This document shows positions 42,910 through 49,333 of a stretch of DNA of 64,000 nucleotides, piece after piece. The stretch comes from Bacteroidota bacterium (GTDB lineage: Bacteria > Bacteroidota > Bacteroidia > B-17B0 > Aurantibacillaceae). The notes beneath the pieces are model-generated. The model was not told where the DNA came from. It saw only the letters and a list, made by a program, of their open reading frames with translations, and made no database searches. The first letter of the stretch is position 1; each line of letters starts with the position of its first letter. The stretch is from the NCBI GenBank assembly GCA_963169355.1, contig CAUJCR010000002.1:62001-126000 (forward strand), read 5' to 3'. The position numbers were made by a program, and so were the translations under genes.

Positions 42910-43407
42910 ATGAAAAAGATAATTGTTATCGCATCATTCTTTGTTTCAGCTTTACTAATTAGCTGTGGCGGAGAAGAAAAACCAGCTGCGCAAGGACAGG
43001 AAGCAGCTACAACTGAGGAACAACCAGCAATGGCGGAAGCAAATCCTGAGTCTTATGACCCTAAAAGAGGTGAAGGTAAATGGACGGCCGAATTACTTGC
43101 ACTTACTGAAACATTAGATGCTGCTAAAGCAGATGCTGGAGAAAAAGCATCAAATGTTAAATGTTCATCTTGTCACAAATATACAGATGAAAGATTAGTA
43201 GGACCAGGTTGGAAAGATGTAACAAAACGTAGAACGCCAGAATGGTTAATGAATTTTATTACTAATCCAGATCCTATGTTAGACAAAGATCCTGAGGCTC
43301 AAGCAATGTTAGAGTTATGTTTAGTGCGTATGCCTAATCAAAATTTAACTGACGACGAAGCAAGAGGGATTTTAGAATTTATGCGTAAAAATGATGGTGT
43401 AAAATAA
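42910..43407 (+). CDS. c-type cytochrome of the nitrous oxide reductase cluster
   Basis: A 165-aa lipoprotein cytochrome. Lipobox LLISCGG (Cys19) is followed by an Ala/Glu/Gln-rich linker and one c-type haem site, CSSCH at 85-89. A conserved Met in CLVRMPNQNL is the probable second axial ligand. It fits the small NosC-type cytochromes placed before nosZ in clade II loci, where they are thought to pass electrons from the quinol/bc pool to NosZ. It is the first gene of the cluster, with its own promoter. Confidence 0.88.
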   Translation: MKKIIVIASFFVSALLISCGGEEKPAAQGQEAATTEEQPAMAEANPESYDPKRGEGKWTAELLALTETLDAAKADAGEKASNVKCSSCHKYTDERLVGPGWKDVTKRRTPEWLMNFITNPDPMLDKDPEAQAMLELCLVRMPNQNLTDDEARGILEFMRKNDGVK

Positions 43408-43532: not shown

Positions 43533-45530
43533 ATGAAAATGACAAGTAAAATATTAACAATTGCAACTGGTGGTGCATTAATTGCCAGTGCCTTACAGTC
43601 GTGTAAACCAAAAGACACCAGTAACGTTGTGTCAGGTAACGCATCTGTAAAAGCTTATGTAGCCCCAGGGAAATTTGACGAGGTTTATAACTTTGTGAGC
43701 GGTGGTTTTAGTGGGCAGATGAGTGTATATGGTATTCCAAGTGGTCGTTTATTCCGTGTAATTCCTGTATTTTCAGTAGATCCTGAAAAAGGATGGGGAT
43801 ATAGCGAAGAAAGTAAGCCCATGTTAAATACCTCTAAAGGATTTATTCCATGGGACGACTTACACCATGTTCAATTATCAAAAACAAATGGTGATGCTGA
43901 TGGTCGTTGGGTATTTGGTAATGCTAACAATACACCACGTATAGCACGTATTAGTTTAAAAACCTATAAAACGGAAGAAATTATTGAGATACCTAATAGT
44001 GCAGGTAACCACTCATCTCCATTCTTAACTGAGAATACAGAATATGTAGTAGCTGGTACTCGTTTTAGCGTTCCTTCAGATAATGTTAATGGCGATGTTC
44101 CTATTAATACCTACAAACAAAACTTCAAAGGTTACTTAAGTTTTATTAGCGTAGGAAAAGAAGATGGGAAAATGGATATAGCCTTTCAATTAGAGTGTCC
44201 AGGAGTTAACTTCGATTTAAGTCGTGCAGGTAAAGGTGTATCACATGGTTGGTTCTTCTTTTCTTGTTATAATACAGAACAAGCTAATACCTTGTTGGAA
44301 GTTAATGCTTCACAAAGAGATAAAGACTTTATTATGGCAGTGAATTGGAAAAAAGCTGAGGAATATATTAAAGCAGGAAAAGGAAGAAAAGAATCTGTAA
44401 AATATGCGCATAATGTGTGGGACGAATCAACCCATACATCAACTTCTGAGATTAAAAATGAAGTTACAGTTTTAAATGTAAAAGATTTTCCAGATATCTG
44501 TTATATGATGCCATGTCCTAAATCTCCACATGGTTGTGATGTAGATCCTACTGGTGAATATATTGTAGGAAGTGGTAAACTTGCCGCATTATTACCAGTA
44601 TTTAGTTATAGCAAAATATTAAAAGCTATTGAATCAAAATCGTTTGATGGAGAATATGAAGGTGTACCAGTTTTAAAATACGAATCAGTGCTTCATGGTG
44701 AGGTTAAGAAACCTGGTTTAGGTCCTCTTCATACTGAGTTTGACGCTAAAGGAAACGCTTATACTTCATTCTTTGTATCGTCTGAAATTGTAAAATGGAA
44801 CGTTAAAGAATTAAAAGTGATTGATAGAGCCCCTACTTTCTATTCAGTTGGTCACTTGTGTACTGTTGAAGGTGATTCTAAAAACCCAACGGGTAAATAC
44901 TTAATTGCATACAACAAAATCACTAAAGATCGTTATTTACCAACTGGTCCAGAATTATGTCAAAGTGCTCAATTATTTGACATCAGTGGAGAAAAAATGG
45001 AGATGATTTTAGATTTCCCAACAATTGGTGAACCTCACTATGCTCAAATGATTTTAGCTGATAAGATTAAAAACAATTCAACTAAAATTTATAAAATTGA
45101 TGAGAACAAACATCCTTACGTAACTAAAGGAGAAAAAGAATCAAAAATTGTGAGAGAAGGTAACAAAGTACATGTGTATATGACTTGCGTACGTTCGCAC
45201 TTTGCTCCAGATAATATCGAAGGTATCAAAATGGGAGATGAAGTATATTTCCATGTAACTAACTTAGAACAAGACTGGGATGTTCCACATGGATTTGCTG
45301 TAAAAGGCGATGCAAATGCTGAACTACTAATTATGCCAGGTGAAACACAAACTTATAAATGGGTTCCAAATGGTGTAGGTATTGTTCCTTTATATTGTAC
45401 TGACTTCTGTAGTGCATTACACCAAGAGATGCAAGGATATGTACGTGTATCTCCTGCTGGTAGCAATGTTCCTTTAACATGGAGTGTTGGTACTAATTTA
45501 CCAAAAGCAGAAGAAACTGCTACTAAGTAA
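43533..45530 (+). CDS. nosZ: Nitrous oxide reductase, clade II (Sec-type)
   Basis: Reduces N2O to N2 in the periplasm. The N-terminus (MKMTSKILTIATGGALIASALQSC) is Sec/lipoprotein-like and lacks the twin-arginine motif, which marks clade II. The seven-bladed propeller carries CuZ histidines in DDLHHVQLS, GVSHGWFFF, PKSPHGCDVDP, LHTEFDA, SVGHLC and GEPHYAQ. The C-terminal CuA domain has YCTDFCSALHQEM, giving Cys622, Cys626, His630 and Met633. At 665 aa it is full length. A 125-nt gap separates it from the cytochrome gene, and a terminator-like hairpin follows it. Confidence 0.97.
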   Translation: MKMTSKILTIATGGALIASALQSCKPKDTSNVVSGNASVKAYVAPGKFDEVYNFVSGGFSGQMSVYGIPSGRLFRVIPVFSVDPEKGWGYSEESKPMLNTSKGFIPWDDLHHVQLSKTNGDADGRWVFGNANNTPRIARISLKTYKTEEIIEIPNSAGNHSSPFLTENTEYVVAGTRFSVPSDNVNGDVPINTYKQNFKGYLSFISVGKEDGKMDIAFQLECPGVNFDLSRAGKGVSHGWFFFSCYNTEQANTLLEVNASQRDKDFIMAVNWKKAEEYIKAGKGRKESVKYAHNVWDESTHTSTSEIKNEVTVLNVKDFPDICYMMPCPKSPHGCDVDPTGEYIVGSGKLAALLPVFSYSKILKAIESKSFDGEYEGVPVLKYESVLHGEVKKPGLGPLHTEFDAKGNAYTSFFVSSEIVKWNVKELKVIDRAPTFYSVGHLCTVEGDSKNPTGKYLIAYNKITKDRYLPTGPELCQSAQLFDISGEKMEMILDFPTIGEPHYAQMILADKIKNNSTKIYKIDENKHPYVTKGEKESKIVREGNKVHVYMTCVRSHFAPDNIEGIKMGDEVYFHVTNLEQDWDVPHGFAVKGDANAELLIMPGETQTYKWVPNGVGIVPLYCTDFCSALHQEMQGYVRVSPAGSNVPLTWSVGTNLPKAEETATK

Positions 45531-45548: not shown

Positions 45549-45588
45549 AAAGGGAGCAGTTTTTTAGAAAATCTGCTCCCTTTTTCTT
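45549..45588 (+). terminator. Terminator or attenuator between nosZ and the maturation genes
   Basis: AAAGGGAGCAG / CTGCTCCCTTT, an 11-bp stem with a 13-nt loop followed by TTC and T-rich sequence, 18 nt after the nosZ stop. No TAnnTTTG box lies between it and the next gene, so it probably gives partial termination. Confidence 0.85.
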
Positions 45589-45605
45589 TATATTTAAAAT
45601 TTGAA

Positions 45606-46625
45606 ATGATGAAAAATAAGATTTCGCTATTATCAAGAATATTACTTGTATTGGCCGCTGTTGCACTAGTATATTCCGTATTTGTACCAATTTGGCAAAT
45701 AGATTTAGATGCGCCCCAATATCCTGAAGGATTAGTATTAAAAATTCATGCTGATAAATTAGCTGGAAACGTGGATATTATTAATGGATTAAACCATTAT
45801 ATTGGGATGAAAACATTACACACCGAAGACTTTATTGAATTTAAAGTTTTAAAATATATTATTTTCTTTTTTGCTGGCTTATCTTTACTCACCGCAATTA
45901 TTGGAAACAAAAAGGTGCTTAACTCACTGCTTAGCTTATTTGTACTATTTGGTATTGTAGCAATGGTTGATTTTTGGAAATGGGAATATGACTATGGGCA
46001 TAACCTAGATCCTCATGCTGCTATTATAGTTCCAGGAATGGCTTATCAGCCACCATTAATAGGATTTAAACAACTACTTAATTTTGGAGCTTATTCAATA
46101 CCTGATATTGGAGGGTGGTTGTTTATAGGTAGTGGCTTATTAATGTTAATTGCTGTGATTTTTGAATGGAGAAAATCAGTGAACTTAAAAAAAAGTGGTT
46201 CAACATTAGCTATAGCTAGTTTAATGGTTTCTATTATTGCAACTAGTTGTGGACAATCTGGTCCAGAAAAAATTAATTTAAATAAAGATAATTGCGACAA
46301 CTGTAACATGCCTATCTCCGACATTCGATTTGGATGTGAATTAGTAACTGAAAAAGGCAGAGTCTATAAATTTGACGATGTGTCTTGTATGATAGGCTAT
46401 AGTGCGGAGAATAAAGATAAATTAAATAATGCGCTTTACTATGTTTGCGATTATTTATCGCCACACGAACTTGTTCAAACTAATCAATTAACGTTTATAG
46501 AAGGAGAGGCTGTAAATAGTCCTATGGGAGGAAATGTAGCCTCATTTTCAAATGCTGATAGTGCTAATACCTATAAAACAATTTGGAATGCAGCAGCAAC
46601 TTCGTGGCAGAGCATGAACCAATAA
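45606..46625 (+). CDS. nosL: Membrane protein fused to a NosL-type copper chaperone domain
   Basis: A 339-aa two-part protein. Residues 1-190 form a membrane domain with helices at about 8-28, 82-100, 103-122 and 168-187 and a soluble loop (about 30-80). Residues 216-339 are a NosL domain: CDNCNMPISD (230-239, the Cu(I) site), GRVYKFDDVSCMIGY and a C-terminal SPMGGNVASF segment. NosL delivers copper to NosZ. Between the parts is a complete lipoprotein-like signal, NLKKSGSTLAIASLMVSIIATSC (Cys215), preceded by an in-frame GTG (46179) with a GGAG upstream. Either a true fusion or a second internal start is possible. nosD begins 2 nt after the stop. Confidence 0.85.
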   Translation: MMKNKISLLSRILLVLAAVALVYSVFVPIWQIDLDAPQYPEGLVLKIHADKLAGNVDIINGLNHYIGMKTLHTEDFIEFKVLKYIIFFFAGLSLLTAIIGNKKVLNSLLSLFVLFGIVAMVDFWKWEYDYGHNLDPHAAIIVPGMAYQPPLIGFKQLLNFGAYSIPDIGGWLFIGSGLLMLIAVIFEWRKSVNLKKSGSTLAIASLMVSIIATSCGQSGPEKINLNKDNCDNCNMPISDIRFGCELVTEKGRVYKFDDVSCMIGYSAENKDKLNNALYYVCDYLSPHELVQTNQLTFIEGEAVNSPMGGNVASFSNADSANTYKTIWNAAATSWQSMNQ

Positions 46626-46627
46626 GC

Positions 46628-47863
46628 ATGAAGCAATTCATTCAAATACTCGTTTGTCTTTTTATTAGTTTTCAATATTATGGAAAGCAATTACAGGTTG
46701 GTTTAAATAAAGAATTTACTTCCATAAAAAAAGCAATTGAAGTTGCCGATAACAATGATACTGTTTATGTTTATTCAGGACACTATAAGGAAGGTAATAT
46801 TGTTATAAAGAAATCTATTAAACTAATTGGGAAAGGCTTACCAATTCTTGATGGAGAAAAAAAAGGTGAGGTGCTCTCCATTAAAGCTAATTATGTATTA
46901 GTATCGGGTTTTAAAATACAAAAATCAGGTTTTGCTTCTTTAAACGATCCTTGTGGCGTAAAGGTGTATGATAGTCATCATGTAATCATAGAGCGCAACA
47001 TTTTTGATGATAATTTCTTTGGTATTTACCTACAATATAGCAAACACTGTGTAGTTAAAAATAATAAACTTACTGCTTACGCTGTAGAGGAACAGCAAAT
47101 AGGAAATGGAATTCATTGTTGGAAGAGTGATAGTTTACAAATAATTGGTAATAAAGTAAAAGGGCATCGAGATGGTATTTATTTCGAGTTTGTAACTAAC
47201 TCTGTTATTTGGCGAAATATAGCTACAGATAATATTCGATATGGTTTACATTTTATGTTTTCTCATAGCGATTCTTACATTTCAAATATATTCAGAAATA
47301 ATGGTGCAGGTGTTGCCGTTATGTTTACAAAAGGGGTAAAAATGTTTCATAATACATTTGAAGAAAATTGGGGTGATGCAGCTTATGGCTTAATGTTAAA
47401 AGAAATCTCTGATAGTCATATTATAGGAAATACCTTTAAAAGAAATACAACGGGTATTTACATGGAAGGCACTAATCGCATTTTGGTTGAGAGAAATAAA
47501 TTTGAATCAAATGGCTGGGGAATGAAAGTACAAGCAAGTTGTATGGATAATATTATAACCAATAATAATTTAATAGGAAATACCTTTGACATTAGCACAA
47601 ACGGCAGCTTAGTATTAAACACATTTAACTCGAACTACTGGGACAAATACGAAGGATATGATTTAAACAAAGATAATGTTGGCGATGTACCTTTTCATCC
47701 TTTAAGCATCTTTTCTATCATTGTAGAAAAAAATCCACCTGCTATGTTACTGTTTAGAAGTTTTATGGTTACTTTGCTAGATAAATCTGAGAAGATGATG
47801 CCTAGCCTCACACCCGAAAATTTTATAGATAACACGCCGTTAATGCGTTCTTTAGACTTATGA
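46628..47863 (+). CDS. nosD: NosD, periplasmic beta-helix protein of nitrous oxide reductase maturation
   Basis: Right-handed beta-helix of the CASH/NosD family that works with NosFY in delivering sulfur or copper for the CuZ site. The ORF track starts at 46583 inside the NosL frame; the ATG at 46628 begins a signal peptide (MKQFIQILVCLFISFQYYGK) and is preferred. The mature part has repeated coils such as HHVIIERNIFDDNFFGIYLQYSKHCVVKNNKLT and SHIIGNTFKRNTTGIYMEGTNRILVERNKF. The corrected product is 411 aa, normal for the family. Its stop overlaps the nosF start (ATGA). Confidence 0.94.
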   Translation: MKQFIQILVCLFISFQYYGKQLQVGLNKEFTSIKKAIEVADNNDTVYVYSGHYKEGNIVIKKSIKLIGKGLPILDGEKKGEVLSIKANYVLVSGFKIQKSGFASLNDPCGVKVYDSHHVIIERNIFDDNFFGIYLQYSKHCVVKNNKLTAYAVEEQQIGNGIHCWKSDSLQIIGNKVKGHRDGIYFEFVTNSVIWRNIATDNIRYGLHFMFSHSDSYISNIFRNNGAGVAVMFTKGVKMFHNTFEENWGDAAYGLMLKEISDSHIIGNTFKRNTTGIYMEGTNRILVERNKFESNGWGMKVQASCMDNIITNNNLIGNTFDISTNGSLVLNTFNSNYWDKYEGYDLNKDNVGDVPFHPLSIFSIIVEKNPPAMLLFRSFMVTLLDKSEKMMPSLTPENFIDNTPLMRSLDL

Positions 47864-48573
47864 TTGAGATAACAAATTTACATAAGCATTTTGGGAAACT
47901 TGAAGTTTTAAAAGGGATAAATTTATCTTTTAATAAAGGTGAGTGTATTGCCTTGATAGGTCCTAATGGTTGCGGAAAAACCACTTTAATAAAAAGCATT
48001 TTAGGAATGGTTATTCCTAGCCAAGGAACTATAAAGGTAAAAGGAGAATTAATTTCTAAAAACTACCAATATCGACAACATATTGGGTATATGCCTCAAA
48101 TAGGACGTTATCCTGATAACATGACAATTGGTCAAATAATTGAAATGATAAAAGATATCCGAAAAGAAAATCAGAACTTAGACGAGGAACTTTTACATCA
48201 TTATTTATTACAAGGTATGTTTGATAAACGTATGCGTACTTTATCGGGCGGAACTACTCAGAAAGTAAGTGCAACGCTCGCTTTTCTTTTTAATCCAGAT
48301 ATTTTAATTTTAGACGAGCCCACTGCAGGACTTGATCCTTTAGCTTCTGAAATTCTAAAAGAAAAAATTATTACCGAAAAACAAAAAGGAAAGCTAATTC
48401 TTATCACATCGCACTTACTTAGTGAACTAGATGATTTAATTACACACATCGTTTTTATGCAAGATGGACATTTAAAATTTCATCAATCGGTCTCTGAGTT
48501 AAAAACAAGAACAGGCGAAGAAAGAATTTCAAAGGCTATTGCATCTGTATTGAGAGGAGGTAGCCATGAATAG
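47860..48573 (+). CDS. nosF: NosF, ABC transporter ATPase of nitrous oxide reductase maturation
   Basis: A 237-aa ATPase. Walker A is GPNGCGKTTL (near residue 34), the Q-loop is YMPQIG, the signature is LSGGTTQKVS, Walker B is ILILDEPTAGLDP, and the switch His is in ITSHLL. It energises the NosDFY complex, thought to move a sulfur species for CuZ assembly. It overlaps nosD by 4 nt and nosY by 8 nt, so the three are translationally coupled. Confidence 0.95.
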   Translation: MIEITNLHKHFGKLEVLKGINLSFNKGECIALIGPNGCGKTTLIKSILGMVIPSQGTIKVKGELISKNYQYRQHIGYMPQIGRYPDNMTIGQIIEMIKDIRKENQNLDEELLHHYLLQGMFDKRMRTLSGGTTQKVSATLAFLFNPDILILDEPTAGLDPLASEILKEKIITEKQKGKLILITSHLLSELDDLITHIVFMQDGHLKFHQSVSELKTRTGEERISKAIASVLRGGSHE

Positions 48574-49333
48574 AATTATCAAATTTATCATATTAGATAT
48601 TTTAAAGAATAAAATAGTTCTCATCTACACGCTCATACTAGCTGTACTTTCGTGGAGTGTATTTAGCTTAGAAGATAACAGTACAAAGGGTATTCTTACT
48701 TTACTAAATGTGATACTATTAACTGTTCCTTTGGTATCTGTTATATTTTCTACCATTTATCTATATAATAGTTCCGAGTTTATAGAGTTGTTACTTAGCC
48801 AACCCGTAAATAGAGTTAAAATATGGCGCAGTTTATTTTTTGGATTAGTTATTTCCTTAATCCTGTCATTTAGCATTGGAGTAGGTATTCCATTAATGAT
48901 GTATGCGCCAAGTAACGTAGGCTTCATGATGTTGGCTGTTGGAATTTGTATCACTACGGTTTTTGTGGCTATCGCATTTTTTAGCTCAATTATTACACGC
49001 GATAAGGCAAAAGGCATTGGAATTGCCATTATGCTTTGGTTATTCTTTGCCCTTCTTTTTGATGGTATCGTTCTTTTTCTTTTGTTTCAATTAGCAGATT
49101 ATCCAATCGAAAAAATGATGGTCGGAATTACAGCTCTTAATCCAATTGACTTAGCAAGGATTTTAATTTTATTGCATCTTGATGTATCTGCCATGATGGG
49201 TTATACAGGCGCTATATTTAAAGAATTTTTCGGTACATCACTCGGAATTATAGTAGCATTTTTAGTGCTGTTGTTATGGACAGTTACCCCTTACCTTATC
49301 TCTTTAGTAAAGTTTAAAAACAAGGATTTATAA
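48566..49333 (+). CDS. nosY: NosY, ABC-2 type permease of nitrous oxide reductase maturation
   Basis: A 255-aa inner-membrane permease with six hydrophobic segments, starting MNRIIKFIILDILKNKIVLIYTL and including FIELLLSQPVNRVKIWRSLFFG, the amphipathic coupling helix typical of NosY. It is the last gene of the nos operon. It is followed by 59 nt and then a convergent MFS gene, without a strong terminator. Confidence 0.93.
   Translation: MNRIIKFIILDILKNKIVLIYTLILAVLSWSVFSLEDNSTKGILTLLNVILLTVPLVSVIFSTIYLYNSSEFIELLLSQPVNRVKIWRSLFFGLVISLILSFSIGVGIPLMMYAPSNVGFMMLAVGICITTVFVAIAFFSSIITRDKAKGIGIAIMLWLFFALLFDGIVLFLLFQLADYPIEKMMVGITALNPIDLARILILLHLDVSAMMGYTGAIFKEFFGTSLGIIVAFLVLLLWTVTPYLISLVKFKNKDL

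Follow-up and report, generated by a model that had tools for sequence, protein, structure and literature searches.

Does a gene that joins a polytopic membrane domain to a copper chaperone make one protein or two? The question is raised by a nitrous oxide reductase (nos) cluster of a Bacteroidota bacterium, in which the two domains share a single reading frame and a complete lipoprotein signal sits between them, in the middle of a protein that already has four membrane helices. The window analysed here is a 64,000-nucleotide stretch (contig CAUJCR010000002.1, positions 62,001 to 126,000), and the gene occupies positions 45606 to 46625 of its forward strand, stop codon included, encoding 339 amino acids from an ATG start.

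The locus and its two joined domains

The gene stands in a cluster read entirely from the forward strand, in the order cytochrome c, nosZ, nosB/L, nosD, nosF and nosY. A c-type cytochrome lipoprotein-like gene (42910 to 43407; PF00034, E 3e-6) precedes nosZ (43533 to 45530), which encodes a clade II, Sec-dependent nitrous oxide reductase (TIGR04246, 922.6 bits against a cut-off of 625). Downstream of the fusion gene come nosD (46628 to 47863; TIGR04247, 419 bits against a cut-off of 300) and two ABC transporter genes assigned by family match and by place: the ATPase gene nosF after nosD (47860 to 48573; PF00005) and the permease gene nosY after nosF (48566 to 49333; PF12679). Between nosZ and the fusion gene lies a strong terminator-like hairpin with a T tail (45549 to 45591, forward strand, fold -18.7 kcal/mol). 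By raw count, comparable hairpins stand in 106 of 197 related loci, which suggests that nosZ may be expressed above the level of the accessory genes. The fusion is present in single copy in the source genome.

The reading frame is confirmed as NosB, a membrane protein with four helices that belongs to clade II nos clusters, joined to the copper chaperone NosL; the membrane domain and NosL domain that an earlier, sequence-only reading had placed in one frame were both recovered, the former as four helices in a structure model and the latter as a PF05573 match. NosB takes up residues 1 to 188 (45606 to 46169), with four membrane helices and two periplasmic loops. AlphaFold2 places helices at residues 8-24, 77-99, 102-132 and 168-193 (mean pLDDT 96.6) and predicts both loops to be beta-rich. 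The motifs LNHYIGM (residues 62-68) and YGHN (residues 130-133) are present, both named as NosB motifs in PMC9697520, and the helix number (four, where NosB should have four or six) and the position directly 3' of a clade II nosZ are those of NosB. The same paper describes NosB as essential for N2O respiration in Wolinella. The suggestion that the membrane part might be a missing partner of clade II NosZ has therefore been overtaken, the domain being already known as NosB and already reported in fused form (PMC9697520).

The N-terminal domain matched no family in Pfam, NCBIfam or the PDB sequences; a weak NCBIfam "lipo-invert" match (E 0.96) was set aside as not significant. In a fold search the NosB model (residues 1-194) weakly resembled claudin/TARP-like folds (best E 2.3e-3, TM about 0.46), but the likeness was put down to a common architecture of four helices and a beta-sheet rather than to kinship. 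Residues Q38, N63, H64, Y65, G67, M68, E78, L134, A138, P149 and G153 are invariant across 106 aligned NosB sequences, and the one His and one Met among them could be metal ligands.

The NosL domain spans residues 216 to 339 (46251 to 46622), with CxxCxM at 230-235. PF05573 matches residues 227-324 (E 2.9e-11, 44.3 bits against a curated cut-off of 24), and a profile built from the fused relatives matches P. stutzeri NosL, whose structure is solved (7osf), from the signal onward (E 3.2e-7). The copper motif residues are C230, C233 and M235, of which C233 and M235 are invariant in 75 aligned fused sequences. In separate NosL, a lipoprotein, two cysteines are conserved, the predicted lipid anchor and the Cys of CXM, and soluble NosL devoid of the anchor Cys still binds Cu(I) tightly (PMC6530538). 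The product of the fusion gene shares the NosL fold, the CXXCXM motif and the lipobox Cys with the NosL lipoproteins of P. denitrificans and P. stutzeri (7osf), but those are separate proteins with an N-terminal signal, whereas here the conserved signal and its lipobox are internal, behind the four-helix domain. At nine loci (L115, L118, L120, L137, L141, L144, L147, L166 and L181) nosB is followed by a pair of NosL-like genes, the first of which has other residues in place of CxxCxM (e.g. DICSYTNDVIETVRYGG) and is a possible candidate for a non-copper NosL paralogue.

Fused and split forms across Bacteroidota

The domain fusion is already known. PMC9697520 reports it in Dyadobacter fermentans, with van Spanning 2011 and Hein 2017 as its sources, and infers it for Flavobacterium azooxidireducens as well as two relatives; other flavobacteria carry nosB and nosL as two genes. 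These NosB-L proteins resemble the one studied here in their domains, the order of the domains, their placement between nosZ and nosD, and the LNHYIGM and YGHN motifs; the difference is that the passages of PMC9697520 on NosB-L treat it as one multidomain protein and mention no lipobox, lipoprotein or cleavage. The clade II NosB of Wolinella succinogenes and Gemmatimonas is likewise a membrane protein encoded beside nosZ, with the conserved motifs, but from a separate gene that is not joined to NosL (PMC9697520). A literature search on internal lipobox cleavage returned nothing relevant, and no description was found of the retention of the central lipobox or its consequence for NosB, although priority is uncertain, with Hein 2017 and van Spanning 2011 outside the literature covered.

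Matches were obtained in 134 of 396 Bacteroidota genomes, and the loci were classed as 110 fused and 100 not fused, a proportion that is not a prevalence because 80 of the fused loci came from a search for sequences similar to the fused protein, which favours fused forms. The evenly drawn tree sample has 30 fused loci out of 120. Nearly all fused loci (106 of 110) have nosZ upstream and nosD downstream. Among the non-fused loci, ten have NosB with no NosL found nearby and the others have a separate NosL behind it, and in most of the Bacteroidota sampled NosB is a separate gene just before nosL. Whether the N-terminal part occurs in this way had been posed by the sequence-only reading as a check; 82 loci have a separate nosB directly before nosL, with nosZ upstream and nosD downstream. 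The proposed merger of a membrane gene with nosL is borne out to the extent that these are two separable genes, while the accompanying idea, that the old signal became a plain transmembrane segment, is at odds with a lipobox that has been kept.

No recognisable NosL lies near nosZ-nosB-nosD in L186, L187, L191, L193, L194, L195, L200, L203, L207 and L208, which indicates that NosB functions without an adjacent NosL.

Separate nosB and nosL are usually tightly packed, the commonest spacing being a 4-base overlap, so small changes are enough for fusions to arise. For 120 loci a tree was built from NosB and NosL with the linker excluded; read with no inference of the direction of change, it requires at least 16 switches between the fused and the split state, and at least nine of these are forced by well-supported branches. 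One genus (code g6) holds both forms, fused in genomes G025 and G068 and split in G057 and G258. Given this interchange, the fused proteins that retain the lipobox represent several independent lineages. The whole protein was matched once in 29 of the 30 fused genomes of the unbiased sample, so that free NosL, if needed, must derive from the fusion.

The signal between the domains

The linker begins with a positively charged stretch, residues 189 to 198 (46170 to 46199), which alignment charge marks as the putative cytoplasmic n-region of an internal signal. It is followed by a hydrophobic h-region, residues 199 to 214 (46200 to 46247), and by the lipobox A-T-S-C, residues 212 to 215 (46239 to 46250), with the Cys215 codon at 46248-46250. 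The layout thus runs from R189 K190 and K195 K196 through a 15-residue helix in the model (199-213) to I-I-A-T-S-C, ending at Cys215.

A lipoprotein-type signal had been read here from the letters of this one gene, and the relatives bear it out. When the lipobox Cys was located upstream of the NosL domain in each of 108 distinct fused sequences, it was found in all 108. The preceding residue (-1) is Ser in 75%, Gly in 16% and Ala in 7%, a small residue of this set (S/G/A) standing there in 107 of 108. On a tree of fused proteins only, with a total length of 43.5 (about 43 substitutions per site), the Cys column requires 0 parsimony steps and the -1 column 17; the other linker columns require 52-74 steps from -24 to -2 and 45-53 from +1 to +3. 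C215 also stands as an invariant column when 75 fused proteins are aligned independently with MAFFT. Its codon varies among the fused genes (TGC 65, TGT 43), which shows that the codon drifts while the residue stays fixed.

Separate NosL proteins have the same Cys in 90 of 90 and S/G/A at -1 in 89 of 90 (A 34%, S 32%, G 32%); the nine second NosL-like paralogues were left out of this set, their signal Cys lying further upstream than the interval scanned. Lipoboxes that fall outside the relaxed consensus number 14 of 108 in fused and 11 of 90 in separate proteins. The retention of the Cys is not an ascertainment effect, since the 80 search loci were retrieved with no peptide pattern on the lipobox and the Cys is also kept in the 30 fused loci of the evenly drawn sample.

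The surroundings of the Cys fit a signal of this type. Mean net charges taken from the alignment are +2.5 and +3.4 for the predicted cytoplasmic loops (the latter being residues 187-200) and -2.8 and -0.4 for the predicted periplasmic ones, in agreement with the positive-inside rule, and no charged residue occurs at -13 to -2 in 106 of the 108 fused h-regions. A Lys/Arg-rich n-region, an uncharged h-region and a Cys preceded by a small residue are the features of a lipoprotein precursor cut by LspA. Genes for both Lgt and LspA are present in the source genome.

The fate of the fused chain

Could the fused chain be a precursor? We consider it probable that the gene encodes two proteins in one, a chain that is lipidated and cut into NosB and a free NosL lipoprotein. 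A single chain would be translated in which NosB has its N-terminus in the cytoplasm, crosses the membrane with four helices and returns its C-terminus to the cytoplasm; the Lys/Arg-rich stretch and the hydrophobic segment behind it would then serve as an internal lipoprotein signal, taking NosL to the periplasm. Lgt would attach a diacylglycerol to Cys215, and the bond between Ser214 and Cys215 would be cleaved by signal peptidase II (LspA). NosB would keep a fifth helix, and the released NosL would be an ordinary lipid-anchored copper(I) chaperone, taking part in CuZ assembly with NosDFY.

A linker that otherwise changes freely but holds one unvarying Cys, with a small residue in front of it, is the pattern expected from selection by Lgt and LspA, and because four helices already anchor the protein, a lipid would be superfluous unless NosL were released. 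FbcH of Bradyrhizobium, the cytochrome b/c1 precursor, provides a precedent: a single chain is synthesised in which a polytopic membrane protein precedes an internal signal and a periplasmic domain, and this chain is cut at the signal. It differs in that the cut is made by type I signal peptidase, no lipid is involved and the proteins are unrelated. Against a cut precursor stands the fact that LspA is normally known to act on N-terminal signals, as do the 14 fused lipoboxes outside the relaxed consensus, although separate NosL proteins deviate too; in some young fusions, moreover, the signal could in principle have been refreshed by repeated fission and fusion.

The fusion might instead stay intact and bifunctional, a possibility that we regard as rather unlikely. 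The signal would then form a fifth transmembrane helix, with a Cys that is lipidated by Lgt but uncut or that acts as an extra anchor, and NosL would stay close to NosB and NosDFY, so that copper could be passed on. The portrayal of NosB-L in PMC9697520 as uniting both functions agrees with this, as do the helix that the model predicts through the signal and the slightly longer uncharged run before the Cys, with a median of 16 residues in fused proteins and 13 in separate NosL. However, the near-universal S/G/A at -1 is what LspA cleavage would be expected to impose, the rest of the linker is unconstrained, and a lipid anchor would be redundant next to four other helices. For a transmembrane helix that remains uncut, we know of no cause for the -1 restriction.

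Two products could also arise by translation. The sequence-only reading had allowed for a full-length protein and a free NosL lipoprotein from the one frame; two products are the outcome favoured here, but an internal start as their source is improbable. Ribosomes would also have to begin at the in-frame GTG at 46179-46181, or at its equivalents in other genes, to yield a NosL with its own N-terminal signal. That GTG is indeed there, in frame with the Lys residues and the h-region, and so is the GGAG at 46168-46171, 8-11 nt upstream of it. The combination is common only to this gene and the 93%-identical L031, and is best read as chance and the GTG as non-functional. Across the fused genes start codons are not enriched where they would be needed: ATG, GTG or TTG occurs at -30 to -13 in 69 of 108 against 74.1 expected (sd 3.6, synonymous resampling), and in a narrower interval 56 were observed against 60.4 expected. 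An ATG at -25 to -14 is found in 26 of 108 fused genes versus 83 of 89 separate NosL genes, and a start together with a Shine-Dalgarno (SD)-like element in just 8 of 108. Bacteroidota use SD elements weakly, so their absence alone does not exclude starts; the missing start codons in many genes do. The fused genes thus have no conserved pairing of internal start codon and ribosome-binding element. Of the two features whose conservation in fused forms the sequence-only reading had put at stake, then, the lipobox is conserved and the internal start is not.

It is very improbable that the Cys is a copper ligand, passing Cu from NosB to NosL, rather than a lipidation site. A thiol that never varies, lying close to the membrane surface and flanked by two domains with putative roles in copper handling, would suit such a function, but separate NosL, with its signal at the N-terminus, keeps the residue just as strictly, and the -1 restriction would be left unexplained. 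A sequencing or assembly artefact, or a decaying leftover of a recent fusion, for which nothing speaks beyond the fusion's origin from two genes, can be given next to no weight, being refuted by the 110 fused loci in independent assemblies, complete isolates included, and contradicted by a signal maintained across deep divergence.

The NosB-NosL fusion has served as an argument for a role of NosB in copper handling. Should the chain be cut once it is made, NosB and NosL need not work as a unit and that argument is weakened; what would remain to explain the fusion is fixed stoichiometry or co-insertion. An internal lipobox behind a membrane domain would then be an LspA substrate. On balance, and a little less firmly than for the precursor itself, we lean towards the wider view that signal peptidase II of Bacteroidota acts on an internal lipobox behind a complete polytopic membrane protein, so that one gene gives a membrane protein and a lipoprotein, in an arrangement repeatedly gained or lost in nos clusters that may be a general route to matched amounts of the two.
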